Translations under genes and position numbers: made by a program
Notes under the pieces: generated by a model
Database searches by the model: none
The model's input: the letters and a program-made list of their open reading frames with translations, nothing else
Told to the model about the DNA's origin: nothing
Shown here: piece by piece, positions 19,685 through 62,667 of the stretch
How the letters are laid out: each line of letters begins with the position of its first letter
Numbering within the stretch: position 1 is the first letter of the stretch
Source of the DNA: Psychromonas sp. Urea-02u-13
GTDB lineage: Bacteria; Pseudomonadota; Gammaproteobacteria; Enterobacterales; Psychromonadaceae
Assembly: GCF_002835995.1 (NCBI RefSeq)
Contig: NZ_PJBZ01000044.1
Location: 62,001-126,000, forward strand
Reading direction: 5' to 3'
DNA: 64,000 bases

Positions 19685-19796
19685 GCGCATCGAGATTAAT
19701 AGTTCAATTTTAGCTATCAATACTCACTTAACCTATTAACGGTATTTGTGCCTTTTTCTTCTATGAAGAAAAGATCAAAACGTTAATTACTATAAC

Positions 19797-19895
19797 ACAC
19801 ACGTATCGACACGTAACTCGGGGTGCTGCTTTCAATTTTATTGAAACTGGTCGAGTTTATGGGGTACGTGGAGGCCTAACCCCTACTAAAGGAAA
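19797..19895 (+). promoter_or_regulatory. rpsB 5' leader, probable S2 autoregulatory RNA
   Basis: The leader contains CGTAACTCGGGGTGCTG and the hairpin GGGGTACGTGGAGGCCTAAC with its closing CCCC next to the ribosome-binding site AAAGGA. This resembles the conserved rpsB leader of gammaproteobacteria, where S2 represses its own synthesis. The fold is inferred by eye. Confidence 0.6.
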
Positions 19896-19901
19896 TTCAA
19901 A

Positions 19902-20639
19902 ATGGCAAATGTATCAATGCGCGATATGCTACAAGCTGGCGTTCACTTCGGTCACCAAACTCGTTACTGGAATCCAAAAATGAAGCCATTCATTTTCGGT
20001 GCTCGTAATAAAGTTCATATCATCAACCTTGAGCAAACTGTTCCAATGTTCAACAAAGCACTTAACTTTTTAGAAGCAAAAGCAGCTAAAAAAGGTAAAG
20101 TTCTTTTTGTTGGTACTAAACGTGCAGCTTCAGAAGCGGTTAAAGAAGCAGCTATTGCTTGTGACCAATTCTATGTTGATCACCGTTGGTTAGGTGGTAT
20201 GTTGACTAACTGGAAAACAGTTCGTCAATCGATCAAACGTCTGAAAGACCTTGAAGTTCAAAGCCAAGATGGTACTTTTGATCAGCTTACTAAGAAAGAA
20301 GCGCTTATGCGTACTCGTGAATTAGAGAAGCTTGACAAAACGCTTGGTGGTATCAAAAACATGGGCGGTATCCCAGATGTAATCTTCGTAATCGATGCAG
20401 ATCACGAGCACATTGCAATTAAAGAAGCAAATAACCTAGGTATCCCAGTTATTGCTATCGTTGATACTAACTCATGCCCAGACAACATCGATTTTATTGT
20501 TCCTGGTAATGATGATGCTATCCGTGCTATCAAACTGTATTTAGATGCAGCTGCACAGACTGTTAAAGACGGTCGTCAAGCAGATGTTGTTGTTGCAGCA
20601 GAAGCAGACGGTTTTGTTGAAGAAACAGCTGAGAAATAA
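19902..20639 (+). CDS. rpsB: 30S ribosomal protein S2
   Basis: Essential small-subunit ribosomal protein, 245 aa. The start [20 protein letters not shown] and the internal [32 protein letters not shown] and [16 protein letters not shown] are diagnostic. Codon use is biased as in highly expressed genes. It heads the rpsB-tsf operon behind a strong promoter and a probable autoregulatory leader. A terminator-like hairpin separates it from tsf and probably lowers tsf expression. Confidence 0.98.
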
Positions 20640-49656: not shown

Positions 49657-51276
49657 ATGAAACTAATTGTTGGACAAAATATCTCAATTGAGCAACCCAG
49701 TACGATCGATATTGATTTTGCTTGGCGTAGTTTAGAAAGTAACTTGAACTTAACGGTGCATGCTTTTGCGTTTACTAATGGCAAAATAGCTGACCTTGGG
49801 CAAGTGAACCCTAATAAGATAAAGCTACCAGATGGGGTGCTTCGTGATAGCTCTGATCGTCATTTTGAGGTGTTATTTCCAGCATTAGCGGCGGATGTTG
49901 ATCGCATCGCTTTTTATGGTCTATTACCCGAAAAGAGTGACTTTTCGTTACAGGCAATGAGCCACTTTCAAATTCGCATTAATCATCAGCAAGGCGATAG
50001 AATCGCAGTCATTGATGTTGATGCTTTTTCTAAAAAGCACAAAAGCGCTTTGTTCTTTGAGCTGTATAAGCATAACAATAGCTGGAAATTAGCGTATAAA
50101 TTACAGCCATTAAATACCCATCGAGTACAAACATTAGAGCAGCTGGGTTTACAGGTTGTTAAAAAAAACATTAAGAAAGTAACACCGGCTGCAGCGCAAT
50201 CTAAGCCTAAGCCACAACAACAAAACCAACAGCAAAGCCCGCTATTAGCGAGTGAACCTGCGTTGACTGAGGCTGAAATACTTGCCGGTATTAATCTAAA
50301 AAAGGGACAAAACATATCCCTCACAAAGCATTTTAAATATTGTGCTTCAATCACTTGTAAATTAAATGTTGTACCCAAAATAGAAGATTTAGACCTTAAT
50401 GTAATCGCGTTAAATAGTAATAACACCTTACATAACGTGAAAGATTTTTTATACCGTGAAAATACCTTGTTACGCGGCGATGGTGTTAAGTTGCATAAAG
50501 ATCATGTGCTTATTAATCTTGCTGACATACCAGCCGATGTGAACAAAATTCAATTGTTAATCACGCGCCGTTCGGGTGGCAAACGTATTAGTAGTGCTGA
50601 TTTTATTGAACTGGATTTAACCGGTACCCATACCGAGCAAAAAATAGCGAAGTATGTATCAGAAACCTCCGATAAAAATTACAACACTATGGTGCTGTTA
50701 GATATTTATCGCCAAGCAGAGGGCTGGTCTATTCGCGCTGTGGGGCAAGGTTTCTCTGGAGGTTTAGACAAAATTGGTGAGCGTTATAAATTCTCTCCAC
50801 CTAAATTACGCGCCATTGCACAAGCACCTGTTAATGAAAACGAAGCGCTGAACGCTGTCGCCATTGATAATAGTGAAGATCATGCCAAGCACAAAAAACA
50901 ACAGACCCTTTCTTATTATTTGATGGGCGCAGCTGGTGTTGTTTCACTGTTTGCCTTAAGTCGTTTACTGTTATTACCTTTGGCTGCTATTTTAGCGGGC
51001 TTAGGTTGGTTTATGTATCAGCGCTCCTCTAAAGCTCTGAGCTCTGTGCATGAAGAGCAACTAGAGCGTTTAGTATTAAATATCATTAAAGCGAATAATT
51101 ACCAAATAACCGCTTTTGAAATAGCGGCGAATCATCCGGTGAATATTGAACAGTCAACCAAAGTGCTCGATAAGTTATGTGATAAAGGATTAGGCTCAAC
51201 GGCCTTTAATGAAGAGGGGTCTGTTTATTACGATTTCTCTCGTCTGAAAAGTACGGCTGACAAAAATCATTGGTAG
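49657..51276 (+). CDS. Membrane-anchored protein with two TerD-like domains and C-terminal helix-turn-helix-like region
   Basis: A 539-aa protein, not a standard named Ter gene. Residues 1-150 are a divergent TerD-like domain (LIVGQNISIE; ALFFELYKHNNSWKLAYKLQ), followed by a Gln/Pro/Lys linker (173-200, PKPQQQNQQQSP). A second TerD-like domain spans ~212-375 (LKKGQNISLTKH, INLADIPADVNKIQLLI, MVLLDIYRQAEGWSIRAVGQ, GFSGGLDKI). Residues ~418-455 are strongly hydrophobic, one or two membrane helices. The last ~80 residues (EEQLERLVLNIIKANNYQIT, FEIAANHPVNIEQSTKVLDK, YYDF) look like a winged helix. Neither TerD domain has the Asp-rich loop seen in TerD/TerE. It opens the Ter island after mazG. A membrane stress sensor or scaffold is inferred. 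Confidence 0.75.
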   Translation: MKLIVGQNISIEQPSTIDIDFAWRSLESNLNLTVHAFAFTNGKIADLGQVNPNKIKLPDGVLRDSSDRHFEVLFPALAADVDRIAFYGLLPEKSDFSLQAMSHFQIRINHQQGDRIAVIDVDAFSKKHKSALFFELYKHNNSWKLAYKLQPLNTHRVQTLEQLGLQVVKKNIKKVTPAAAQSKPKPQQQNQQQSPLLASEPALTEAEILAGINLKKGQNISLTKHFKYCASITCKLNVVPKIEDLDLNVIALNSNNTLHNVKDFLYRENTLLRGDGVKLHKDHVLINLADIPADVNKIQLLITRRSGGKRISSADFIELDLTGTHTEQKIAKYVSETSDKNYNTMVLLDIYRQAEGWSIRAVGQGFSGGLDKIGERYKFSPPKLRAIAQAPVNENEALNAVAIDNSEDHAKHKKQQTLSYYLMGAAGVVSLFALSRLLLLPLAAILAGLGWFMYQRSSKALSSVHEEQLERLVLNIIKANNYQITAFEIAANHPVNIEQSTKVLDKLCDKGLGSTAFNEEGSVYYDFSRLKSTADKNHW

Positions 51277-51277
51277 T

Positions 51278-51383
51278 GATAGCAATTCCACTAACTAATC
51301 AATCTCACGGGTTAAAAGAAGCTATTTCCGCGTTGTAAGTTTTGTAAGGGGGGTAACCATTTACTTATCCAGATTGCTATGAC
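51278..51383. repeat. Intergenic segment with TGATAGCAAT / ATTGCTAT inverted ends
   Basis: GATAGCAATTCC near 51280 and AGATTGCTATG near 51371 form inverted ends of a ~105-base non-coding segment that includes a GGGGGG run. It resembles a small dispersed element, but only one copy is in this window. Confidence 0.4.
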
Positions 51384-51408
51384 GACATAAAAATAAATAC
51401 AACCCCTT

Positions 51409-51436
51409 TTGACATTAAATGTCTTGGTGGTATGAT
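51409..51436 (+). promoter_or_regulatory. Sigma-70 promoter upstream of cation exchanger
   Basis: TTGACA, 16 bases, TATGAT: strong hexamers. The predicted start is near 51443, only about 8 bases before a terminator hairpin. Confidence 0.75.
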
Positions 51437-51450
51437 GCGCCATTATATAT

Positions 51451-51485
51451 TGCCTTTGAATACTTCAAGGGCATTTTTTTATTTT
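51451..51485 (+). terminator. Terminator/attenuator in the exchanger leader
   Basis: TGCCTTTGAA / TTCAAGGGCA (one G-T pair) with loop TAC and a long T run. It ends about 20 bases before the exchanger ATG and downstream of the only strong promoter, so it must be read through for expression. Confidence 0.82.
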
Positions 51486-51504
51486 TAATCAGTTAAGGAA
51501 AACC

Positions 51505-52590
51505 ATGGAACTTTTTGATGCAACTTGGCCTTTCGCGCTAATTTTAGTCGCTTGTTACATACTAAAATATTCATGTGATACTTTTGAGCAATCTGCCGCT
51601 TACCTTGGGCGTAATATGCCAGCCGGTGTAAAAGGCGCCACAGTAAACGCAGTGGGTTCAAGTATGCCTGAAATGTGTGTGGTTATTTCTTGTCTGTTTT
51701 TCTTTGATGATCCTGCGATGGTAATGGTGGGTTTAGGTGTTACTGCGGGCTCTGCTATTTTTAATGGCTGTGTAATCCCGGCTTTATCTATCCTGCTCGC
51801 AAAAGATGAACAAGGTAATAAAGTAAAATCTATTCAATTGGATAAAAAATCACTGTTACGCGATCTGTTTTGGGTAATTACTGCTGAAATTGCATTGGTT
51901 GCTTTCTTAGGCTTTGATGCATTTACCGTGATGATGGCTGTTGCCTTAAACGCAGTCTATGTCGGTTACGCTGTTCATTTATACATTGATAGTCGTGGGC
52001 ATGAAGCAGATGAAGATGCTTATGAATATGAAGACATTGAATGTAGAGGCCTTATTGGTAACATCTTTACTTTTAATTTTAATAGCTTATTTTTTGGCAA
52101 TAAAGACTTCAGCTTAACTCGTGCGATTGTAGTGTTAGGTTTGGCTATTCTGATTATTTCTGCTGCATCACACCTATTAGTTGAAGGTGTTGTTGGCGCT
52201 GCTGATGTGATGGGAGTTCCTGCGTTCTTTTCTGGATTAATACTTGGTTCGGCTGCATCGTCTATTCCTGATTTAATTTTATCAGTAAAAGATGCACGTA
52301 AAGGTAACTATGAAGATGCGGTAGCAAATCCATTAGCATCAAATACATTTGATACAACCATCGCATTCGCTTTACCATTATTAGTTTGGTTTGGTTTGAA
52401 CGGTGTTGATTCATTAGCGATTGAACAAAGTGAAGGTTTGACTTTATTACGTTGGTCAATTATTGGTGTGACGGTTGCTGTTGGTGCAAGTTTATTATTT
52501 AAGCATACTAACGTCACTAAAAACGTCGCATTTTTGCTTTTATCCATCTTTGTTGTATGGGCAGGAACAATGACCTATTTAATAGGCTAA
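51505..52590 (+). CDS. CaCA-type (sodium/calcium exchanger-like) cation antiporter
   Basis: A 361-aa membrane protein with about ten hydrophobic helices. The two alpha repeats of the cation/Ca exchanger superfamily are visible: NAVGSSMPEM with TAGSAIFNG (47-88) and GSAASSIPDL with AVANPLASNTFD (248-283); the conserved acidic residues are E56 and D256. A charged loop around 163-182 (HEADEDAYEYEDIE) lies between the halves. Direction and ion (Ca, Na, Mn or other) cannot be read from the sequence. AAGGA precedes the ATG. Its place in a Ter cluster that lacks terC suggests it supplies the membrane ion-transport part. A perfect-arm terminator follows. Confidence 0.85.
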   Translation: MELFDATWPFALILVACYILKYSCDTFEQSAAYLGRNMPAGVKGATVNAVGSSMPEMCVVISCLFFFDDPAMVMVGLGVTAGSAIFNGCVIPALSILLAKDEQGNKVKSIQLDKKSLLRDLFWVITAEIALVAFLGFDAFTVMMAVALNAVYVGYAVHLYIDSRGHEADEDAYEYEDIECRGLIGNIFTFNFNSLFFGNKDFSLTRAIVVLGLAILIISAASHLLVEGVVGAADVMGVPAFFSGLILGSAASSIPDLILSVKDARKGNYEDAVANPLASNTFDTTIAFALPLLVWFGLNGVDSLAIEQSEGLTLLRWSIIGVTVAVGASLLFKHTNVTKNVAFLLLSIFVVWAGTMTYLIG

Positions 52591-52594
52591 ACAT

Positions 52595-52633
52595 AAACTT
52601 GCTAACATTAATCATTTTAGTGTTAGCAAGTTT
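52595..52633. terminator. Strong hairpin terminator after exchanger gene
   Basis: Perfect 13-bp arms AAACTTGCTAACA / TGTTAGCAAGTTT with a 13-base loop, directly after the stop. The T run after the arm is short, so efficiency is uncertain. Confidence 0.75.
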
Positions 52634-52760
52634 CTCCCTTATTTACCTTTAACATCCCCTTATTATTGACTCTCTAAATCTCCATTATTGATTTTCTGGG
52701 AAGTCATATCTTGTAAAAAAGTTGTTTCCTTTAAAATTAATTCGCTAGATTTATTTTGCA

Positions 52761-52779
52761 ATAACGCTACATGCGTTAT
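52761..52779. promoter_or_regulatory. Candidate operator palindrome before Ter metabolic operon
   Basis: ATAACGC TACAT GCGTTAT is a perfect 7-5-7 palindrome about 45 bases before the first gene of the metabolic operon. No confident promoter was found in 52634-52823. Confidence 0.4.
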
Positions 52780-52823
52780 GGTGCTATCTATTCTCCTTTA
52801 TTCATCATTAAACGGTATTCTCT

Positions 52824-53954
52824 ATGACCGAAAAAACATACAAAATCACCACCGGTGACTTAACCGTGAAAGTAACCAAAGGCGCTGATCGTTTAGCTGA
52901 CTTTATTGACGTTGCACAACGTAAAAATCCGAAAAGACCTTTCTTATTTGTGAGTAAAGTCTTGGGTCGACATATTCCCGTTAAACCATCGGTGATGGCG
53001 CAAACTTACGATGAATTAGCGGAGGGTATTATGGCTAATTTAAGCGGGCCAATCGCGGTGGTTGGTATGGCTGAAACGGCCGTTGGTTTAGGCGCAGGTG
53101 TACATCAGGCGTTATTAGCGCGTGGCTGTGAAAGTGTGTATTTATCAAGTACTCGCCACCCGATGGACAGTCCTGTTTTTTGTGAATTCAAAGAAGAACA
53201 TAGCCATGCTATGTCGCATTATTTACATGAACCCGTGGATGAAAAAGCGAAACAAAACTTCATTCATGCAAGCACATTAGTATTAGTTGATGATGAAGCG
53301 ACGACGGGTAATACCTTTGCAAACCTTGCAAAGGCATTAGCCGAAGCCGGTTTACAAGACTTAAGCTCATTAGTCGCGGTGACCTTAGTTGATTGGTCAC
53401 AGGGCGCGTTGTTAGAAAAATTAAAAACCAATGAAGTCACCAAGCAATGGCAAGTACATTCTCATGCCTTGATTGAAGGTAGCTGGGATTGGCAAGCAGC
53501 AGGCGGCATTGCGCCATTAGCTTTGCCAAGTGATGTGCAAGCGACACAAAAAACAGCGCCTATATTATTTAGCGAAAAAAGTTGTCGTGCCGGCCTGATT
53601 GAAAGTACGCCATTTAAAACCTGCCCAACGATAAAAGCCGGAGAAAAGGTCTTAGTGCTAGGCAGTGGCGAGTTTGTTTGGCAACCTTATCTGTTAGCAA
53701 AACAATTAGAAGATGCAGGTCATGACGTGTATTTCAGCGCCACAAGTCGTTCGCCAGTGACTGACGGCTATGCGATGAAACATAGTCTCGCTTTTCATGA
53801 TAATTACGGTGAAAACTTTGCGATGTACGCCTATAACATTGATGCACAGATTTACGATCGTATTCTTATCTGTTCTGAAACGTCAGCGCAAGCATGGGAC
53901 AAAACCTTATTATCGACACTAAGCCAAGCTGAGGTAGTGGAATATGACGTATAA
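52824..53954 (+). CDS. Phosphoribosyltransferase / TRSP domain protein of Ter cluster
   Basis: A 376-aa protein with an N-terminal phosphoribosyltransferase-like domain: the PRPP loop is VLVDDEATTGNTF (153-165), preceded by VGMAETAVGLGAGVHQALLA (80-99). The C-terminal ~130 residues (CRAGLIESTPF, VLVLGSGEFVWQPYLLAKQL, FSATSRSPV) match the TRSP-type domain known to accompany these enzymes in tellurium-resistance gene neighbourhoods. Comparative genomics predicted that such genes make a nucleoside-like metabolite; the product is unknown. It heads a four-gene operon and overlaps the next gene by 11 bases. Confidence 0.85.
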   Translation: MTEKTYKITTGDLTVKVTKGADRLADFIDVAQRKNPKRPFLFVSKVLGRHIPVKPSVMAQTYDELAEGIMANLSGPIAVVGMAETAVGLGAGVHQALLARGCESVYLSSTRHPMDSPVFCEFKEEHSHAMSHYLHEPVDEKAKQNFIHASTLVLVDDEATTGNTFANLAKALAEAGLQDLSSLVAVTLVDWSQGALLEKLKTNEVTKQWQVHSHALIEGSWDWQAAGGIAPLALPSDVQATQKTAPILFSEKSCRAGLIESTPFKTCPTIKAGEKVLVLGSGEFVWQPYLLAKQLEDAGHDVYFSATSRSPVTDGYAMKHSLAFHDNYGENFAMYAYNIDAQIYDRILICSETSAQAWDKTLLSTLSQAEVVEYDV

Positions 53955-54738
53955 GAAAGCCATTATCCTTAGCGATCTTGATGACACTTTTTTTCAAACT
54001 AAACGAAAAATGTTAGAAGCGGATATCACGCCTCATAAAATGGCCGCATTAGACAGAGAAGCAAAACCGCGTAGCTTTATGTCTGAGCCTCAAACTAATT
54101 TAGTCGATTGGTTATTAGCAACAAGTGAAGTGATTCCGGTTACCGCAAGAGGCAGTGATGAATTTGCACGCATTGATATTAAATTTTCATCTTACAAAAT
54201 AGCGTGTCACGGTGCGGTTATTCTAAACCCTGATGATACTCCTAACGCTGGCTGGCAAAAAATAGTTGAGCAATATATTACGCGCTTAACACCGAAAATA
54301 TTGGCGCTAAAAAGTAAAGTTGAACAGTTGATTGATGATTCAGAATCACTTTGTAATAAGAAGATAGATGCGTGGGCACGTATTAACGAAGAAAATGGTT
54401 TGCCGATATATTTAGTGTGTAAAGTCCGCGATTCTCTGCAAGAGGCTGATTTAGCGGTATTAGCTGAGATGGTTGAAAAAGAGTTTGATCTTAGTGACTT
54501 TTACATTCATCGTAATCGTAATAACTTGGCTTTTTTACCAAAACTAATTGCCAAAGAAAACGCCACTAAATACCTGTTAGAGCATTTAGTTGAGACCGAA
54601 GGGCGTCCTATTTTGTCTTTTGGTGATAGTTTTAGCGATTTACCTTTTATGGCATTAGGTGACTTTATTTGTGTGCCTCGTCATAGCCAAGTTGCTGAGA
54701 ACAAGAATCTTATTGTGGAGGGCAATCATGTCGATTAA
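53944..54738 (+). CDS. HAD family phosphatase of Ter cluster
   Basis: A 264-aa HAD hydrolase. Motif I LSDLDDTFFQT supplies the nucleophile D11 and acid/base D13; motif II Thr is in VIPVTARG; motif IV is in LSFGDSFSDLPFM. The cap between motifs II and IV resembles the Cof/sucrose-phosphatase type (C2). It probably dephosphorylates an intermediate of the pathway encoded by its neighbours. It overlaps both the upstream and downstream genes by 11 bases. Confidence 0.85.
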   Translation: MTYKKAIILSDLDDTFFQTKRKMLEADITPHKMAALDREAKPRSFMSEPQTNLVDWLLATSEVIPVTARGSDEFARIDIKFSSYKIACHGAVILNPDDTPNAGWQKIVEQYITRLTPKILALKSKVEQLIDDSESLCNKKIDAWARINEENGLPIYLVCKVRDSLQEADLAVLAEMVEKEFDLSDFYIHRNRNNLAFLPKLIAKENATKYLLEHLVETEGRPILSFGDSFSDLPFMALGDFICVPRHSQVAENKNLIVEGNHVD

Positions 54739-55825
54739 ACCATTTTCAGGCAGTTATCCTGATCCGGATGTTACTTTTTTATTAACGCCATTAGACATGG
54801 AAATGACCGATGTAAAAACCAAAGAAGCGTTAATCCAAAGTGGTAAAAAGCATTACTCAGAAATGCTCTCTTTGGAAAACCCCCCTTCTCAATTACATTT
54901 AGATATTTTCGAGCAAGCTCTAGTGCTTGGCGGAAAACGCATGGCGAAAGAAACATTAGTGCTGGCCCAAGCATTGGCTGATTCAATCGACAGTCGCCCG
55001 TTAGTATTAGTCTCACTCGTACGTGCTGGTGTGCCGATGGCCGTCTGCTTGATGCGCGCGTTACGCCTATTAGATATTGAAGCCGTGCATTACGGCATTT
55101 CAATCATTCGTGATCGCGGTATCGATACCGTTGCCCTGGATAAAATAGAAAAAAAACATGGCACAGAGGGCATCTGCTTTATTGATGGCTGGACAGGTAA
55201 AGGCGCGATTGCAGGTGAATTAAGCAAAGCGTTGATTAATAGACCCGGTTATCCTGAAAAACCACGTTTAGTGGTGTTAGCCGATCCCGGTGGTTGTAGT
55301 TGGCTTGCTGCCAGTGGTGACGATTGGTTGATTCCTTTTGGTGTGATGGGCGCGCCCATTTCTGGTTTAGTCAGCCGCTCTGTGTGGCATGCCACTGATT
55401 TACATGGCTGTGTGGTTTACGATAATTTACGTGAATATGATTGCTCTAGTCGTTTTGTTGATCAGATAGAAGCACACATGAAAGTACAGCTAACAAAAAC
55501 AGCTGAGTCAAAAGAGATACCAACAAAGACACCGATTTTAGACGAGCAGATAAAGGCTCGATTACAAACACAGTGTCACGAAGTGATAGAAACACTTGCT
55601 CAGCAATATCAAATAAGCTCAATTAATCGTATTAAACCGGGTATTGCAGAAGCAACACGTGCGGTAATGCGCCGCGTGCCTGAACATGTTTTAGTGCGTG
55701 ATAAAAGCGATGCCGATGTACAGTTATTATTGTACTTAGCGGAAAAAGTCGGTGCGCCTGTTACTGAGGTGGGCGAGCTGACTGGGAATTATCGCGCTAT
55801 TACTATTATCAAACAGGTCGTGTGA
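54728..55825 (+). CDS. StiP-like phosphoribosyltransferase-fold protein with PELOTA domain
   Basis: A 365-aa protein. The N-terminal ~270 residues match the family labelled PRTase_1 or cysteine protease StiP, found in Ter gene clusters: SLVRAGVPMAVCLMRAL (96-112), the PRPP-loop-like FIDGWTGKGA (151-160) and ADPGGCSWLA. The C-terminal ~65 residues (PGIAEATRAVMRRVPEHVLV, VGAPVTEVGELTGNYRAITI) form a PELOTA-like putative RNA-binding domain. Whether it is a transferase or a protease is not settled by sequence. ATG 54728 with GGAGGG upstream is chosen; the longer frame from 54659 lies inside the HAD gene. Confidence 0.85.
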   Translation: MSIKPFSGSYPDPDVTFLLTPLDMEMTDVKTKEALIQSGKKHYSEMLSLENPPSQLHLDIFEQALVLGGKRMAKETLVLAQALADSIDSRPLVLVSLVRAGVPMAVCLMRALRLLDIEAVHYGISIIRDRGIDTVALDKIEKKHGTEGICFIDGWTGKGAIAGELSKALINRPGYPEKPRLVVLADPGGCSWLAASGDDWLIPFGVMGAPISGLVSRSVWHATDLHGCVVYDNLREYDCSSRFVDQIEAHMKVQLTKTAESKEIPTKTPILDEQIKARLQTQCHEVIETLAQQYQISSINRIKPGIAEATRAVMRRVPEHVLVRDKSDADVQLLLYLAEKVGAPVTEVGELTGNYRAITIIKQVV

Positions 55826-56748
55826 TGAACAATATAAATCCCTATGCGCTGGGTGCAACACTTTACGTACCTGCAGTTAAAGATGACCTATTGAATATTG
55901 TCACTGGGCGAAAATATCCTTTATTACGCTCTGTGGTTATTTGCCTTGAAGATGCCATAAGTGACAATGAGGTTGAGCAAGGTTTAGCTAATTTACAACA
56001 GCTATTACTGGCCTTGCCAACTTGTCTTACTGGTCAACGTCCGCTGTTGTTTGTTCGCCCACGTAATGTTGAGATGGCCATTCAAATTATTGCTAGCATG
56101 CCATTATCGCAACTTTGTGGTTTTGTCTTACCCAAGTTTGATATTGATTCGTTAAATGCATGGAATGAGGCGTGTCGAGGAACAGATTTATTATGGATGC
56201 CAACGCTTGAGACAGCGCAAGCACATGATGCGATTGCGATGCGTGAGCTGGCTATTGAGCTCGACAAACACGATTTACAACAACGTATTATCGCGTTAAG
56301 AATCGGTGGTAATGATTTATTGAGTTGTTTAGGTGTGAGGCGTATGGCGCAGCAAACCTTATATGAAGGGCCCCTCGCTTATACAATCTCAATGCTAGTA
56401 TCGACTTTTTCTCCTCGTCAATATGCACTCAGCGCGCCGGTATTTGAACGCTTAGATGATTTCCCGACCTTGCAACGCGAATTACAGCAAGATTTAGCCT
56501 TTGGTTTAGTGGGCAAAACGGCGATTCACCCTTCACAGTTATTACCCATCCAAAATGCTTTTCGAGTGCCTCTCTCGGATTATCAAGCTGCGATGCAAAT
56601 ATTAAACAGCGAGAAAGCGGTTTATAAGTGGGATAACGTTATGGCAGAGCCGGCAACGCACAAAAACTGGGCGGGGAAAATATTATTACGCGCAGAAGAG
56701 TATGGTGTGTTAGATCTACAATCTTGCCGGACAGAGCTAAACGCTTAA
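55825..56748 (+). CDS. HpcH/HpaI aldolase / CitE-like protein of Ter cluster
   Basis: A 307-aa TIM-barrel enzyme of the citrate lyase beta/HpcH family. LYVPA (13-17), VVICLEDAI with metal-binding acids near 42-43, FVRPRN, VLPKFD and PTLET are the conserved strand ends. It would make or cleave a C-C bond of an acyl intermediate. The ATG overlaps the previous TGA by one base. It is the last gene of the metabolic operon; the ATP-grasp gene often found with this set is not present. Confidence 0.88.
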   Translation: MNNINPYALGATLYVPAVKDDLLNIVTGRKYPLLRSVVICLEDAISDNEVEQGLANLQQLLLALPTCLTGQRPLLFVRPRNVEMAIQIIASMPLSQLCGFVLPKFDIDSLNAWNEACRGTDLLWMPTLETAQAHDAIAMRELAIELDKHDLQQRIIALRIGGNDLLSCLGVRRMAQQTLYEGPLAYTISMLVSTFSPRQYALSAPVFERLDDFPTLQRELQQDLAFGLVGKTAIHPSQLLPIQNAFRVPLSDYQAAMQILNSEKAVYKWDNVMAEPATHKNWAGKILLRAEEYGVLDLQSCRTELNA

Positions 56749-56891
56749 AGTTCAATCAAGTTAATGCCTGGTTGAGCAATTAGAAAGCGTATTTTTTACT
56801 CCTAAGTGGGTATTTATAGCGATCTGTTTTATTTTTTGTTTTGTGTGCTAAAGCACTATTTAAACAAGGTTCTATCTGATAAATTGACATA

Positions 56892-56926
56892 GTAAGTCAT
56901 GCTGTAGAAACAATATTGTAAGTCAT
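56892..56926 (+). promoter_or_regulatory. Direct repeats GTAAGTCAT upstream of ter operon
   Basis: GTAAGTCAT at 56892-56900 and again at 56918-56926 are in phase at 26 bases. They follow a TTGACA hexamer at 56884. They may be activator half-sites or promoter parts; no good -10 matches that hexamer. Confidence 0.4.
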
Positions 56927-56976
56927 CACATTGTTATTCAGCATCAAACCCCAATAACTATAATAAGGAACGATTA

Positions 56977-57585
56977 ATGAGTATTTCTTTAGAGAAAGGC
57001 CAACGCATCAGTTTAGAAAAAAACGGCAACAAACTTGATTCTGTTTGTGTCGGTGTTAACTGGGGAGCTATTGAGAAAAAAGGTTTTTTTGGCACTAAAA
57101 AAGTAGCTGTCGATTTAGATGCAAGTATCAGCCTACATGGTGTTGATAAACAACCTATGGATGTTGTGTTTTACGGACAGCTAAGCAGTAAAGACGGTTC
57201 TATCAAGCACAGCGGTGATGATTTAACCGGCGATTTAGACGGTGATGATGGCTTAGATAACGAAATCATTACGATTAACTTAAGAAAAGTGCCTGCATCA
57301 GTTGAAAAGTTAGCGATTGTTTTAAATAGCTTCCAAGGCCAAGATTTTTCACAGATTCCATTTGCTAGTGTACGTCTATACGAAGGTACACCGACACGTG
57401 TTGATTCTGTTATGGCAAGTTACAACATTGCAAGAGAAGACAAGTTCAAAGGGTCTGTATCGATGATTCTTGGCATCTTGTACCGCAATAAAGATGATTG
57501 GAAATTTAAAGCGGTTGGTGAACCAACAAAAGACCGTAAATTACAAGATACGATTAAAACAGTATCAGATAGCTTCCTAAATTAA
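56977..57585 (+). CDS. TerD-family protein (TerZ/TerX-like)
   Basis: A 202-aa member of the TerD fold, a cytosolic beta-sandwich that binds calcium in studied members. The N-terminus ISLEKGQRISLEKNG and the segments VCVGVNWGAI, VDLDASISLHG and the acidic GDDLTGDLDGDDG loop are family features. The stretch KKGFFGTKK and the 40-residue C-terminal extension (SVSMILGILYRNKDDWKFKA, KLQDTIKTVSDSF) set it apart from TerD/TerE. It opens the structural ter operon in the terZ position. Its exact subfamily name is uncertain. Confidence 0.85.
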   Translation: MSISLEKGQRISLEKNGNKLDSVCVGVNWGAIEKKGFFGTKKVAVDLDASISLHGVDKQPMDVVFYGQLSSKDGSIKHSGDDLTGDLDGDDGLDNEIITINLRKVPASVEKLAIVLNSFQGQDFSQIPFASVRLYEGTPTRVDSVMASYNIAREDKFKGSVSMILGILYRNKDDWKFKAVGEPTKDRKLQDTIKTVSDSFLN

Positions 57586-57645
57586 ATTGAGCAATATGCT
57601 CTAAACGTTTATGACTATGTGATTAATACGCCTGAGGAAATGCCT

Positions 57646-58719
57646 GTGAGTAAGCTTGTTATTGGAGAGAACATTGTTATTTCTAGTCTTGCTGCTTACC
57701 GTTTGCAGTTATCCTTAGGTGAGTGGGACTGGGGTTGCCTTCTTTTTAACAAAGGGGCTGCGCCAATTCACTTTAAAGAAGCGCCTGGACTGGTTATTAA
57801 TGATAAGGCGTTATTAATACACGGTGCTGATATCGAAGATGACTTTGAAAAGTTGCTTGTGTATATCAATATTGACAATAAAAAACCAAATCAAACAATC
57901 AATGCGCAATTAACTGAATTGTTGTCGGGTTCGATTACCGCCAGTATGCAATTTTCGAACGATGAGTTGCCACAAAGCGCATTCGTGTTGCTTGAACTAT
58001 ATCGACATAAAGAACAGTTAAAATTACGTTGTATTGGTCAAGGTTTCGCACAAGGTATCAGCAAGTTATTTGCTAGCTATGGTGTGACTGAGGCAAGTGT
58101 TCACAAAGAAGCTATGTCGTCTACCTCCGCTAAGTCAGTAACCGTTAGTAATACTCAACTTGATGACATATTGGTTAATATGCATTGGGATACCAAGCAA
58201 TCAAGCGTCCATCATGGTGCTAATTTGTTTGTTGGTGAAAATTTTAAACCTATGACTGATTTACGTGTCGGATGTTTATACGAACTGCATAACGGTCAGC
58301 GAGGTCTTGTACAAACGATTGGTGAAGATCTATTAGGATCTTTTCATGGTGTGCCTTATGTTGAAGCGTTACGTTCAGAAAATAGTCATGTAGAACAATT
58401 AGCCATCAATGCAAAGTATCAACACAAATTACATCGATATTTGATTTACGCATTGATGGCAGAAGGGCATAATAATTGGTCGGCATTAAATGTCGAGATT
58501 GAGTTTCAATTAGCTCAATCACAAAAGAGGTGCTTTTCACCCGATACGTTAATGATGAAACCAATTTATGCGGTTGCCATGCTTGAATTTGAGCAAGGCG
58601 AAATAACAATAACAGCACTTAACGAATACTTTGAGAACCTACCTGAGCTAGACCAAGCTTATGGTTGGGGATTAGCGTGGCGTTATCAAAATCAATCAGA
58701 GAATGAGGAACAAGAATGA
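57646..58719 (+). CDS. terA: TerA-like protein
   Basis: A 357-aa protein with two divergent TerD-like halves. The first (1-~150) ends in FVLLELYRHKEQLKLRCIGQ. The second carries the TerA hallmark LRVGCLYELHNGQRGLVQTI followed by GSFHGVPYVEAL. A linker of Ser/Ala lies near 160-175. GTG 57646 has GAGGA seven bases before it and yields an N-terminus (SKLVIGENIVIS) parallel to the protein at 49657; GTG 57619 and ATG 57640 fit less well. It overlaps terB by four bases (ATGA). Confidence 0.82.
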   Translation: MSKLVIGENIVISSLAAYRLQLSLGEWDWGCLLFNKGAAPIHFKEAPGLVINDKALLIHGADIEDDFEKLLVYINIDNKKPNQTINAQLTELLSGSITASMQFSNDELPQSAFVLLELYRHKEQLKLRCIGQGFAQGISKLFASYGVTEASVHKEAMSSTSAKSVTVSNTQLDDILVNMHWDTKQSSVHHGANLFVGENFKPMTDLRVGCLYELHNGQRGLVQTIGEDLLGSFHGVPYVEALRSENSHVEQLAINAKYQHKLHRYLIYALMAEGHNNWSALNVEIEFQLAQSQKRCFSPDTLMMKPIYAVAMLEFEQGEITITALNEYFENLPELDQAYGWGLAWRYQNQSENEEQE

Positions 58720-59168
58720 GTTTTTCTAATTTTTTATCAAGCGTTAAACAAAAGACAAGTGAATTAAAAGGCGAAGTATTGAAGTTCAAAAATAAGAACT
58801 TCTTAAACGCAGCCACAGCAGGATCTGCACTTATCGCAATGGCAGACGGTTCATTAGATTCAGAAGAAAAGAAAAAGATGGTGCGTTTTATTGAAAGCAA
58901 TGATGCGTTATCTGTTTTCAAAACAAGTGAAGTGATTGGTAGCTTTAAAGATTATGTCGATAACTTTGAATTTGACCAAGATATTGGCGAATCAAAATGT
59001 TACGAAGCACTAAGTCGTTTAAAAGGTAATGAAGTTGAGTGTCGTACGGTGATGCGTTTGATTATATCAATTGCAGCTGCTGACGGTGACTTCGATGATT
59101 CAGAAAAAGCCGTTGCGCGTAAAATCGCTATTGAGCTCGGTTTACCTGCTTCAGATTTCGAACTTTAA
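58716..59168 (+). CDS. terB: Tellurite resistance protein TerB
   Basis: A 150-aa helical protein, same length as enteric TerB (151). GSALIAMADGSLDSEEKKKM and IAAADGDFDDSEKAVARKIA are the two acidic helix-loop segments that make up the TerB metal-binding fold; the ending LGLPASDFEL matches. In E. coli TerB binds the inner-membrane protein TerC; no TerC is encoded here, so its partner may differ. Translation is coupled to terA. Confidence 0.94.
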   Translation: MSFSNFLSSVKQKTSELKGEVLKFKNKNFLNAATAGSALIAMADGSLDSEEKKKMVRFIESNDALSVFKTSEVIGSFKDYVDNFEFDQDIGESKCYEALSRLKGNEVECRTVMRLIISIAAADGDFDDSEKAVARKIAIELGLPASDFEL

Positions 59169-59242
59169 CACTTATTCGGCCAATCATATTTTGAATATGT
59201 AGGGTCGATAATTAATAAATATTTAACAGAAGGAAAATTTCA

Positions 59243-59815
59243 ATGGCTATCAGCTTAGCAAAAGGCGGACGCGTTAATTTAGAGAAAGAAGCGCCGGGTT
59301 TAAAAACATTAAAAGTAGGCTTAGGTTGGGATGTGCGCATTACTGACGGCATTGATTTTGATTTAGATGCTAGCCTATTCATGTTAAATGCTGCTGGTAA
59401 AGCAGAAAATGAAGCGTCATTTATCTTTTACAATAACAAGAAATCAGCCTGTGGTTCAGTTGAGCATTTAGGTGATAACTTAACGGGTGAAGGCGAGGGT
59501 GATGACGAGTCTATTCTAATCAACCTTGAATTAATCCCTGCTGGCATCGAAAAATTAGTAGTTGCAGTGACAATCCATGATGCTGACGGTCGCCGTCAAA
59601 ACTATGGACAAGTTGATAATGCGTTTATTCGTATTGTGAACGATGCAAATTCAGAAGAAGTGGTACGTTACGACTTAACAGAAGATCACTCAACGGAAAC
59701 ATCACTTATCTTTGCTGAGTTATACAAAAAAGACGGTGAATGGCGTTTTGTTGCTAAAGGCGATGGTTTTGCTGGTGGTCTAAGCAAGTTACTAGAAGTG
59801 TACGGGTTAGCTTAA
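59243..59815 (+). CDS. terD: Tellurium resistance protein TerD
   Basis: A 190-aa TerD-domain protein. The calcium-site motifs are complete: [45 protein letters not shown] and VRYDLTEDHSTETSL. The start SLAKGGRVNLEKEAPGLK is typical. Preceded by GAAGGAAAATTTCA. It is separated from terB by 74 bases where enteric clusters have terC. Confidence 0.93.
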   Translation: MAISLAKGGRVNLEKEAPGLKTLKVGLGWDVRITDGIDFDLDASLFMLNAAGKAENEASFIFYNNKKSACGSVEHLGDNLTGEGEGDDESILINLELIPAGIEKLVVAVTIHDADGRRQNYGQVDNAFIRIVNDANSEEVVRYDLTEDHSTETSLIFAELYKKDGEWRFVAKGDGFAGGLSKLLEVYGLA

Positions 59816-59895
59816 TTTAAATAATTTAAACTAAATAACTTGAACTAAATAACTCAAACTCAAATTAAATAATTTAAACTAAATACTATTGGAGA
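59816..59895 (+). repeat. AT-rich tandem repeat between terD and terE
   Basis: Imperfect repeats of AAATAA(C/T)TTAAACT run from the terD stop to just before the terE ribosome-binding site GGAGAT. It could be a slippage-prone spacer. No terminator is seen. Confidence 0.7.
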
Positions 59896-59901
59896 TACAA
59901 A

Positions 59902-60480
59902 ATGGCAGTTTCTTTACAAAAAGGTGGCAATGTTTCTTTAGAGAAAGTTGCACCGGGTATGACTCGTTGTATTGCTGGCTTAGGCTGGGATACACGCGTA
60001 ACAGATGGCGTAGACTTTGATTTAGACGCTTCTGTTTTTATGATTGGTGAAGATGGTAAAATTCGCAGCGATGCTGACTTTATTTTCTATAATCAACTTG
60101 TTTCAGGCTGTGGTTCTGTTGAACATACGGGTGATAACTTAACAGGTGAAGGCGACGGCGATGATGAAGCTGTTAAAGTTGACTTAACTAAGATTCCTGC
60201 TGATGTTGCTAAGCTAGTATTGGGTGTAACCATTCATGATGCTGATGCAAGAAAACAAAATTTTGGCCAAGTATCTAATGCCTTTATCCGTGTTGTAAAC
60301 GAAAGCAATAGCGAAGAAGTGGTTCGTTATGACCTTTCTGAAGATTACTCAACGGAAACTGCGTTAGTATTTGGCGAATTCTACCGTCACAATAACAGCT
60401 GGAAATTTAAGGCTATTGGTCAAGGTTTCGCTGGCGGTTTACGCCCAATGGCATTGCAATACGGTGTTAATGTAGGTTAA
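59902..60480 (+). CDS. terE: Tellurium resistance protein TerE
   Basis: A 192-aa TerD-domain protein, closer to enteric TerE in [35 protein letters not shown] and [16 protein letters not shown]. The acidic loop [15 protein letters not shown] is intact. It is a paralogue of the preceding terD (both share VRYDLxEDxSTE). It is the last gene of the operon; a terminator follows. The usual last gene terF is absent. Confidence 0.92.
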
Positions 60481-60506: not shown

Positions 60507-60533
60507 AAAACGCATCATTTGATGCGTTTTTTT
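60507..60533 (+). terminator. Intrinsic terminator of ter operon
   Basis: AAAACGCATCA / TGATGCG-TTTTTTT: 7 GC-containing pairs extended by A-T pairs, a 2-base loop and seven T. Confidence 0.88.
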
Positions 60534-60702
60534 ATGCCTGTCATTTAAGTATTTACTGAGGTAAATAGATTTATTTTTGCGATGCAGTTAAAAGAATCAA
60601 AAGTGAACCGCTAAGTTATTTATCTTTTTTTTATAATGTAAATATACTTGATGTTCCTCACTTGTTTGTACAGTGATACTTTTAACTAGCTTAGGAAGAG
60701 TC

Positions 60703-62667
60703 ATGAATATAATACGCTCCTTTATTATTGCTGGATTAACCTCAGTCGTGTTGCCGGGTTTAGCTGCAACAGAGGCGAAACCAGCAACAAAATATACCAT
60801 CGAATCTAACCAAAAAGTTTTACAATCGTTGCCTTTTACTGATAAACAAGATTTTGAAGATGCAACACGTGGGTTAATCACTAAACCCGATGTACTGACT
60901 ATTACCGATAAAGACGGTAAAGCAGTTTGGGATTTAGAGGCCTATAAAAAATTCATTGCAATTGATAAACAATCCCCCGATACGGTCAACCCTAGTCTGT
61001 GGCGTAATTCGCAACTGACCATTCAATATGGTTTGTTTGAAGTCACTGAAAATATATTCCAAGTACGTGGTTACGACCTTTCTAATATCACTTTTGTAAA
61101 AAGTAAAACGGGGTGGATCGTGTTTGATCCTTTGATCTCTCCAGAAACTGCAAAAGCCGCGTTAGACTTAATTAATAAAGAACTGGGCGAGCGACCTGTT
61201 GTTGCGATTATCTACAGCCATAGCCACATAGATCATTATGGTGGTGCAACGGGCATTGTGACGCAAGAGGATGTGGACGCGGGTAAAGTGCATATTATTG
61301 CACCAGAGCATTTTGCTGAACATGCGGTTTCTGAAAACGTAATTGCCGGTAACGCAATGGGACGACGTGCCATTTATATGTACGGCGCACTATTACCTCG
61401 TAATGCCAAAGGCGGTATTAATGGTGGGCTTGGTATGACCACATCAACCGGTGTCGCTGGATTGATATTACCGACACGTGAAATTAGCCGTAGCGATGAA
61501 AAGCTAAAAGTTGATGGCGTGGAAATGATTTTTCAAATGACACCGGGCACTGAAGCACCTGCTGAAATGAATACTTGGTTCCCACAGTGGAATGCCTTAT
61601 GGATGGCAGAAAATACCACTAATACTATGCATAACATTTTAACGTTACGTGGAGCGCAAGTGCGTGATGCCTTGAAGTGGGCTTATTACCTGAATGAAAC
61701 CATTGAAAAGTGGGGCGCTAAAGTTGAAGTTAAGTTTCAAAGTCATCATTGGCCAGTGTGGGGTAATGACAACATCATTCCTTATTTTGAAAAACAGCGT
61801 GATATTTACAAATTTACTCATGATCAGTCGGTTCGATTAATGAATCAAGGTTATAGCGGTGAAGAGATTTCTGAAATGATCACTTTACCTGAATCTTTAG
61901 AGAACAACTGGGCAACAAGGGGCTATTACGGCACATTACGCCATAACAGCCGTGCAGTTTATCAGCGTTACATGGGCTGGTATAACGGTAACCCATCAGA
62001 TTTAAACAACTTACCCGATGAAATGGTGGCTGTGAAATACATGGAGTTCATGGGCGGTGAAAAAGAGGTATTGAAAAAATCACAGGTTTCCTTTGATAAA
62101 GGTGAGTATCGTTGGGTTGCAGAAGTAATGAAACATGCGGTTTTTGCTAACCCCGAGAGCACTGATGCAAAAGAGTTATTAGCGGATGCTTATGAGCAAT
62201 TAGGTTACCAATCTGAATCTGGCCCATGGCGCTCTGTATACTTGCAAGGTGCTTATGAGTTACGTAATGGTGTTCCTGCTGCTGGTGGCACTCAAACGGC
62301 AACAGAAGACACTATTCGCGCAATGAAGGCGGGTATGTTGTTTGACTATTTATCAGTACGTTTGAATGTTGATAAAGCGGCCGGTAAAGATTTTAAAATC
62401 AATGTTAACTTTACCGATACTAAGAGCAACTATACGCTGAGTGTCAAAAACTCAGTGTTAAACCACACCACTAAACAAGCAAAGAAAGCTGACGTGACTA
62501 TCTCATTAAGCATGGATACTATGCATGAGATTCAATTAAAAGAGACTGACTTTGACCGCGCTATTAGTGATGGAAAAGTTAAACTAAGCGGAGATAAAGC
62601 TATTTTAGATGATTTCCTCGCGATGTTGGATGACTATAACTTCTGGTTTAATATTGTGACGCCATAA
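60703..62667 (+). CDS. Alkyl-sulfatase-like metallo-beta-lactamase-fold hydrolase (SdsA1/YjcS type)
   Basis: A 654-aa secreted protein with an N-terminal signal peptide (residues 1-~21, ending GLA). The di-zinc motif YSHSHIDHYGG is at 171-181, further ligands are in AENTTNTMHN (302-311) and QSHHWPVWG (346-354), as in alkyl sulfatases. A dimerisation domain (~375-525) and a C-terminal SCP2-like domain (~535-654) complete the SdsA1 architecture. Substrates may be primary or secondary alkyl sulfates; the sequence does not decide. ATG 60703 has AGGAAGAG upstream. It is flanked by terminators, so monocistronic. Confidence 0.9.
   Translation: MNIIRSFIIAGLTSVVLPGLAATEAKPATKYTIESNQKVLQSLPFTDKQDFEDATRGLITKPDVLTITDKDGKAVWDLEAYKKFIAIDKQSPDTVNPSLWRNSQLTIQYGLFEVTENIFQVRGYDLSNITFVKSKTGWIVFDPLISPETAKAALDLINKELGERPVVAIIYSHSHIDHYGGATGIVTQEDVDAGKVHIIAPEHFAEHAVSENVIAGNAMGRRAIYMYGALLPRNAKGGINGGLGMTTSTGVAGLILPTREISRSDEKLKVDGVEMIFQMTPGTEAPAEMNTWFPQWNALWMAENTTNTMHNILTLRGAQVRDALKWAYYLNETIEKWGAKVEVKFQSHHWPVWGNDNIIPYFEKQRDIYKFTHDQSVRLMNQGYSGEEISEMITLPESLENNWATRGYYGTLRHNSRAVYQRYMGWYNGNPSDLNNLPDEMVAVKYMEFMGGEKEVLKKSQVSFDKGEYRWVAEVMKHAVFANPESTDAKELLADAYEQLGYQSESGPWRSVYLQGAYELRNGVPAAGGTQTATEDTIRAMKAGMLFDYLSVRLNVDKAAGKDFKINVNFTDTKSNYTLSVKNSVLNHTTKQAKKADVTISLSMDTMHEIQLKETDFDRAISDGKVKLSGDKAILDDFLAMLDDYNFWFNIVTP

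Follow-up and report, generated by a model that had tools for sequence, protein, structure and literature searches.

A ter gene cluster of Psychromonas with a CaCA-family transporter and no TerC

Gene content of the cluster

We analyzed a 64,000-nucleotide stretch of the genome of Psychromonas sp. Urea-02u-13 (the window; G000:C277:62001-126000 in our genome set, G000 being a 4.75-Mb draft of 320 contigs rated 100% complete) and found in it a cluster of ter genes that includes a transporter gene of the CaCA family and lacks terC. Eleven open reading frames (ORFs) lie at positions 49657-60480; all are on the + strand, have the limits listed below and are free of internal stop codons. An earlier reading of the window, based on its letters and ORFs (the original prediction), had described a Ter-type cluster with a non-standard gene set, which agrees with the Pfam assignments to the TerD family, TerB and the enzymes. 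The common direction and the products that it named were likewise confirmed by ORF and Pfam analysis, but the genes number eleven and not nine as it had stated. Clusters carrying this transporter are referred to here as CaCA-type and those carrying TerC as TerC-type; the other CaCA-type clusters come from five congeners and from G471 and G524, which belong to another family of the order.

49657-51276, + strand: twin-TerD membrane protein of 539 residues (Pfam TerD), with two TerD-like domains, predicted helices at about residues 394-479 and a C-terminal domain
51505-52590, + strand: CaCA-family (Na+/Ca2+ exchanger-like) transporter of 361 residues, by Pfam Na_Ca_ex, fold match and Ter linkage
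52824-53954, + strand: PRTase_2 and TRSP enzyme (Pfam), nearest to the TerC-type lineage
53944-54738, + strand: HAD-family phosphatase (Pfam), nearest to the TerC-type lineage
54659-55825, + strand: StiP and PELOTA_1 protein (Pfam), likely start ATG near 54728, nearest to the TerC-type lineage
55822-56748, + strand: CitE-like C-C bond lyase (Pfam C-C_Bond_Lyase), directly after StiP
56977-57585, + strand: TerZ-like TerD protein (Pfam TerD) of the CaCA type, 70% identical to G471 and G524
57619-58719, + strand: TerA-like protein, Pfam TerD match over residues 62-154 only
58716-59168, + strand: TerB of the CaCA type (Pfam TerB, 71.9 bits)
59243-59815, + strand: TerD (Pfam TerD), Ca1-site residues kept
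59902-60480, + strand: TerE (Pfam TerD), aligned without gaps to the solved TerD 2kxt, 80% identical to G524

End-to-end overlaps join the TRSP, HAD, StiP and CitE genes, and also the TerA and TerB genes. When the site lists given in excerpts of PMC8779313 were applied, the Ca1 residues proved to be kept in TerD and TerE, and nearly so in TerZ; twin-TerD and TerA have lost most of them. The Ca2 list matched poorly (W at position 29).

Absence of TerC, TerF and ATP-grasp genes

The original prediction that terC, terF and the ATP-grasp gene are missing was borne out by a genome-wide search, which gave none over the cut-offs. The single sub-cut-off match for TerC was a LysE protein (Pfam LysE, 107.8 bits), and that for the Ter-type ATP-grasp (ATPgrasp_Ter) lay in carbamoyl-phosphate synthase. 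TerD domains were found in six stretches of the genome, all inside this cluster and none with a vWA domain, and therefore there is no TerF. The search for a linked terC, terF and ATP-grasp locus elsewhere in the genome, which had been proposed with the prediction, returned these sub-cut-off TerC and ATP-grasp matches and no TerF.

The absence of ATP-grasp is ordinary, because this gene was detected in 60 of 80 enteric-type loci and went undetected in the other 20, some of the enteric-type loci ending at contig ends; it was detected in 8 of 18 other clusters. The Ter-type ATP-grasp is not strictly defining for the classical TerC-type Ter system. Within the genus, ATPgrasp_Ter scored over its cut-off just once (L031:2307-3218, G018:C326), in a match with a PylC-like N-terminus and polysaccharide-looking neighbours.

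The CaCA transporter

Pfam identified two Na_Ca_ex repeats in the window CaCA. A profile search of the PDB matched NCX1 and NCX_Mj, and a search of the PDB with the single sequence gave no match. The structure model (predicted local distance difference test, pLDDT, 77.9) matched the folds of NCLX, NCX_Mj, YfkE, VCX1 and CAX: all 27 matches at E<=0.001 were CaCA-superfamily exchangers, with template modelling (TM) scores (query) of 0.54-0.73. In its two repeats and modelled fold the protein resembles these exchangers of known structure; unlike them, it belongs to a Ter-linked subfamily, at 12-21% identity.

Four residues, E56, N87, D256 and D283, are invariant in all 13 CaCA sequences compared, including the G140 copy, which is not linked to Ter genes. 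They correspond to ion-ligand positions in the alignment with NCX1 and presumably coincide with those of the NCX_Mj site. Together, sequence and model support the view that the window CaCA is a working divalent-cation exchanger, with the ion not fixed by these data.

Distribution of TerC and CaCA among ter clusters

In total 106 clusters were typed with profiles built from the fetched loci, and Pfam was also run on whole genomes. These were eight CaCA-type clusters, 80 named enteric-type loci and 18 others of the order sample; five of the 18 share DNA with named loci (same records), leaving about 101 distinct clusters. With those five counted twice, 94 clusters had TerC only, eight had CaCA only, none had both and four had neither. 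TerC was present in 79 of the 80 enteric-type loci and CaCA in none; the corresponding figures for the 18 others were 15 and none, the remaining three, two of them close to the end of a contig, having neither. In the eight CaCA clusters neither TerC nor ATP-grasp was found, and the whole-genome Pfam searches likewise placed no TerC there. As judged by gene content, TerC and this CaCA are mutually exclusive in the clusters typed.

Among 365 evenly drawn genomes of the order, TerD domains were found in 26 and CaCA (E<=1e-20) in eight. All eight are among the 26, and in each CaCA lies within about 5 kb of a TerD gene (Fisher p 2e-10, not corrected for kinship). TerC (Pfam, E<=1e-6) was found in one of the eight CaCA genomes (G009, in a second ter locus) versus 17 of the 18 TerD-containing genomes without CaCA, a figure inflated by TerC paralogues that are not part of ter clusters. 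Two more, distant CaCA relatives, at 40% and 32% identity, came from a class sample of 369 genomes. By its gene neighbourhoods the CaCA exchanger is a Ter-linked membrane protein, found in TerC-free clusters together with TerB and proteins of the TerD family.

The second ter locus of G009 (L215, G009:C1:225000-244900) is divergent; it has TerC, TerB and three TerD genes and is present in addition to the CaCA-type cluster of that genome. A second HAD phosphatase gene follows StiP in seven of the eight CaCA clusters (L026-L030, L211 and L212), and the window, like TerC-type clusters, has CitE there instead; the second HAD and the CitE-like lyase are perhaps a separate enzyme swap. The idea that TerA is absent from CaCA-type genomes was rejected, as TerA-like genes were found outside the core clusters in G003, G005, G012 and G017 (about 5 kb off in G003 and G017). 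Also off the main ter cluster, in G005 (L217:9336-10622), is a TerD domain fused to a domain like the N-terminus of type I restriction enzyme R (HSDR_N_2).

Phage Ter modules

The window CaCA matched 38 of 50,697 phage records (37 Vibrio, one Pseudoalteromonas), with 38-56% identity over 93-99% of its length, and two IMG/VR contigs. The surroundings were read for six of the 38 records and both contigs, and in all eight neighbourhoods Pfam found TerD, TerB or vWA-TerF. TerB is located directly upstream of CaCA or one gene away in D517 and K479; in one phage TerB, beside CaCA, is the sole Ter gene named within the 29 kb that were read. Three TerD genes are near CaCA in D93 and in 1.084.O, vWA-TerF and TerD in J2-1, vWA-TerF in one IMG/VR contig and two TerD genes in the other. 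In D69 (L243:10813-15083) three TerD genes (Pfam 100, 88 and 26 bits) and a gene for a 139-residue protein, with small ORFs between, precede CaCA. PHROGs gave no match for the window CaCA or for the two phage CaCAs tried.

A single TerC query, from Shewanella, matched 172 phage records. Four of them are Vibrio phage records (PhiImVa-1, MS02 and BUCT194 twice), and none of the four is a CaCA record. The order in BUCT194 (L250:6153-9014) and MS02 is TerD, TerD, the 139-residue protein, TerC, TerB; the second TerD of BUCT194 is unannotated and scores 46 bits in Pfam. Comparison of D69 with BUCT194 gave identities of 52% and 55% for TerD (both to the same BUCT194 gene), 36% for the second TerD and 49% for the 139-residue protein. 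After these shared genes D69 has CaCA where BUCT194 has TerC. The 139-residue partner is annotated as TerB in BUCT194 (Pfam E 0.037); hhalign did not support the phage partners of 139-153 residues as true TerB.

The exchanger could instead be an accessory with a role of its own, not equivalent to TerC, the latter having been lost for unrelated reasons. This would fit with the scarcity of TerC in the genus in any case (six of 24 genomes over the cut-off, five of the six without TerD genes), with the assignment of CaCA and TerC to different Pfam families and with the other peculiarity of CaCA clusters, the second HAD replacing CitE in seven of eight. We consider it unlikely, as none of the 106 clusters has both proteins, the two clusters of the second family agree, and the D69 and BUCT194 blocks differ in the transporter with the neighbouring genes kept.

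Origin of the window genes

The proteins of the window cluster differ in their nearest relatives. CaCA is 64-71% identical to CaCA of other CaCA-type clusters. TerZ is 70% identical to G471 and G524, 58-70% across CaCA-type clusters and at most 44% to clusters without CaCA. For TerB identity is 71% to G471 and G524 and at most 42% to all others, including TerB of the congeners' CaCA-type clusters (36-38%). TerE is closest to CaCA-type clusters (75-80% at best, 80% to G524) versus at most 71% to TerC-type ones. The enzymes show the reverse: StiP has 61% at best to TerC-type versus 37-40% to CaCA-type clusters, TRSP about 47% at best (in the tree sets) versus 29-32%, and HAD about 47% at best (in the tree sets) versus 26-30%; CitE has 51% to TerC-type clusters and is absent from the other CaCA-type ones. 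The TerA-like protein has 24-28% identity to longer TerA-like matches in either kind of genome.

In tree comparisons with the approximately unbiased test (p-AU), the enzyme tree rejected a grouping of the window's three enzymes with those of G471 and G524 (447 log units, p-AU 8e-5), and the TerB tree rejected a clade made up of the other CaCA-type rows with the window left out (p-AU 0.005). In the CaCA tree, rooted at the midpoint, all eight cellular Ter copies group in a single clade, adjacent to D69, D517 and K479.

From these comparisons the cluster looks mosaic: CaCA, TerZ, TerB and TerE are near those of CaCA-type clusters, and PRTase-TRSP, HAD, StiP and CitE near the classical TerC lineage. 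Such a make-up is well supported by the trees and identities for TerB versus the enzymes. Most simply, this would mean that the transporter moves together with TerB, TerZ and TerE and not with the enzymes.

The mazG-pyrG site

The cluster was originally described as a single island inserted between mazG and pyrG. It is indeed located there, but an additional gene lies between terE and pyrG:

60673-62667, + strand: alkylsulfatase-like metallo-beta-lactamase gene, an occupant of the mazG-pyrG gap in its own right

Within the family set (24 genomes of one genus) 20 mazG-pyrG junctions were fetched. The two genes are linked in 19 of the 20 and unlinked in G008; as to the remaining three congeners, mazG and pyrG of G019 are on different contigs, and G010 and G020 have no mazG match. 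The mazG of G019 (G019:C54:7837-8641) matched in pieces with internal stop codons. In twelve of the 19 linked congener junctions the aligned ends are 204-399 bases apart, with no gene that we could find there, so that not all relatives share the arrangement of the window. Elsewhere the gap holds different genes: a twin-TerD homologue alone in G003, G009 and G017 (55-57% identical to that of the window), the alkylsulfatase gene alone in G006 (89% identity), a porin in G005 and an amino-acid-type ABC operon in G013 (genes by Pfam) and G021 (by look). In G003, G005, G009, G012 and G017 the main ter cluster is at another place. Since the gap holds varied cargo in congeners, it is a place where cargo accumulates, and the "island" is composite; its description as one insertion did not survive the finding of twin-TerD and the alkylsulfatase each alone there. 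From the junctions compared, the mazG-pyrG gap is a recurrent insertion site and twin-TerD is positionally separable from the rest of the cluster.

The nearest kin of G000 by mazG and pyrG are G004, G006 and G011, all without TerD genes. Twin-TerD was found at the junction in four of six ter-bearing versus none of 14 ter-free genomes of the mazG and pyrG tree (Fisher p 0.003, kinship ignored). Its structure model was too poor for a fold search (pLDDT 55.8). Residues of about 394-539 comprise long predicted helices and a small domain, with no Pfam match over the cut-off.

No tRNA and no convincing end repeats of a mobile element were found in the window. The search of 72,556 plasmid records at E<=1e-20 gave no CaCA match, and plasmid-record matches of twin-TerD cover at most 40% of the query.

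Two other explanations can be judged at this point. The varied cargo of the site and the mosaic look of the cluster would both be expected if the cluster were an ordinary Ter island, assembled by recombination in a hot spot between housekeeping genes, that serves solely for resistance to tellurite or metals and whose exchanger exports surplus calcium or a toxic metal. General ion export would not call for so specific a pairing of CaCA with TerB and TerD as is seen in both bacteria and phages, and this explanation appears to us improbable. The original prediction, by which one compact island holds the minimal set of Ter functions, draws on the failure to find TerC, TerF and ATP-grasp in the genome. 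We regard it as very improbable: there are eleven genes, a transporter is present where TerC is missing, the site is composite, and one phage has TerB beside CaCA with no further Ter gene named in the stretch read. TerC looks replaced rather than dropped, and the lack of ATP-grasp is, as shown above, no peculiarity.

Comparison with known systems

According to excerpts of PMC8779313, K. pneumoniae TerD is a Ca2+-binding protein, TerC and TerB are proposed to form a complex that acts as the central unit, TerC may be irreplaceable as the sole membrane protein of terZABCDE, and tellurite resistance results only from gene combinations with terCD or terCE; the window cluster differs from those determinants in having no terC. 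In excerpts of a review (PMC7824862) Ter is described as signal synthesis together with sensing by TerB and TerD, with TerC at the membrane.

The classical Ter system (terZABCDEF with TRSP, HAD, StiP and CitE, often with ATP-grasp genes on the other strand; the 80 named loci) shares with the window TerD-family proteins, TerB, a TerA-like protein and the order TRSP-HAD-StiP-CitE, StiP being up to 61% identical. The window differs from it in having CaCA and no TerC, TerF or ATP-grasp, in having all genes on one strand, and in TerB, TerZ and TerE that are nearest to another lineage. With the other CaCA-type clusters it shares CaCA near TerD and TerB and the lack of TerC and ATP-grasp; unlike the window, they have a second HAD in place of CitE, and their enzymes are only distantly related. 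The phage Ter modules (Vibrio phages D69, D517 and D93; TerC version in BUCT194) resemble it in having CaCA, 38-56% identical, beside TerD, TerB or vWA-TerF, but they are phage-borne, and no TRSP, HAD, StiP or CitE is named in the annotation of the stretches read.

No description of a Ter-exchanger pairing was found in titles and abstract beginnings among the matches listed, the founding Ter paper (Anantharaman et al. 2012) not being covered. The passages of PMC4823308 about TerD, an antiporter and Ca2+ are unrelated to such a pairing. The only literature match for "TerD" with "calcium exchanger" was a colon cancer paper, and none was found on Psychromonas with tellurite and TerD.

Proposed role of the exchanger

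Taken together, the data suggest, with a probability of about 0.7, that the window contains a mosaic CaCA-type Ter stress cluster, in which the CaCA exchanger does the job of TerC through a divalent cation tied to TerB and TerD. The link between the exchanger and the missing TerC, central to the present reading, was not drawn in the original prediction. Driven by an ion gradient, the exchanger would export Ca2+ (or another divalent cation) from the cytoplasm, and would set or follow the ion level sensed by TerD, TerE and TerZ with their Ca2+ sites. Coupled to TerB, it would thereby fill the role of TerC, and the TRSP, HAD, StiP and CitE enzymes would make the small-molecule part of the response. 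If so, the requirement conserved across Ter systems would be for transport of a divalent cation, coupled to TerB and TerD, and not for TerC itself. In terms of gene content, CaCA-type Ter is a new variant of the known Ter system with a predicted function.

A number of points weigh against this reading. The set of clusters is biased, as 80 of the 106 were fetched by StiP similarity to the window, and only two genera contributed the eight CaCA clusters. With the local model the divergent TerC in the second ter locus of G009, found by Pfam, was missed, and therefore local counts can undercount TerC; moreover, G009 has both transporters, at different loci. The distant CaCA relatives in G140 and G061 are not beside Ter genes in the DNA read (by look and local profiles, with only 4 kb for one). 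Phage TerC was sought with the single Shewanella query, so that a divergent TerC may be missed, and J2-1 was outside the TerC check. TerC is linked to manganese in excerpts of PMC8779313, and CaCA members may carry other ions, so that the ion moved may be one other than Ca2+. As to the mosaic, TerD is uninformative on origin because it is 57-64% identical to both kinds of cluster. An enzyme tree in which a branch separates the window and all CaCA-type rows from the rest is compatible with the data (p-AU 0.144), and therefore the enzymes could have branched off early and need not have been imported. The TerZ (p-AU 0.41) and TerE (p-AU 0.70) trees do not reject a clade of the other CaCA-type rows without the window, and the window CaCA is the first branch of the cellular clade in the CaCA tree.

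More tentatively, and with slightly less than even confidence, we propose that Ter has two interchangeable classes of membrane protein, TerC and CaCA, which were swapped separately in cells and in phages. Their shared job would be extrusion of a divalent cation, most likely Ca2+, tied to TerB and Ca2+-binding TerD, and the CaCA class would circulate between marine bacteria and phages. A natural replacement of TerC by a family with known ion chemistry would make the role of TerC in Ter accessible to a plain swap test, for which the phage pair D69 and BUCT194 is a natural control.

Other features of the window

Three non-coding features were located around the cluster:

51409-51436, + strand: promoter-like site (11/12, TG before the second hexamer), between the twin-TerD and CaCA genes
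51451-51473: terminator-like stem, directly 5′ of the CaCA gene
60507-60530, listed for the - strand: near-perfect palindrome, terminator-like, 3′ of terE

The promoter-like site is weak because the region has no more such sites than shuffled sequences. A near-consensus promoter-like site followed immediately by a terminator-like hairpin (51409-51473) just ahead of the CaCA gene could be an attenuator, and the palindrome is a possible end of the ter transcript.

PADLOC, run on ten proteins for known defence systems, gave one weak match (PRTase_III-A, E 0.005). No riboswitch (e.g. of the Mn type) was found in the window with Rfam; the only RNA at gathering scores was t44, at 19778-19880 on the + strand, just 5′ of the ORF that starts at 19902.

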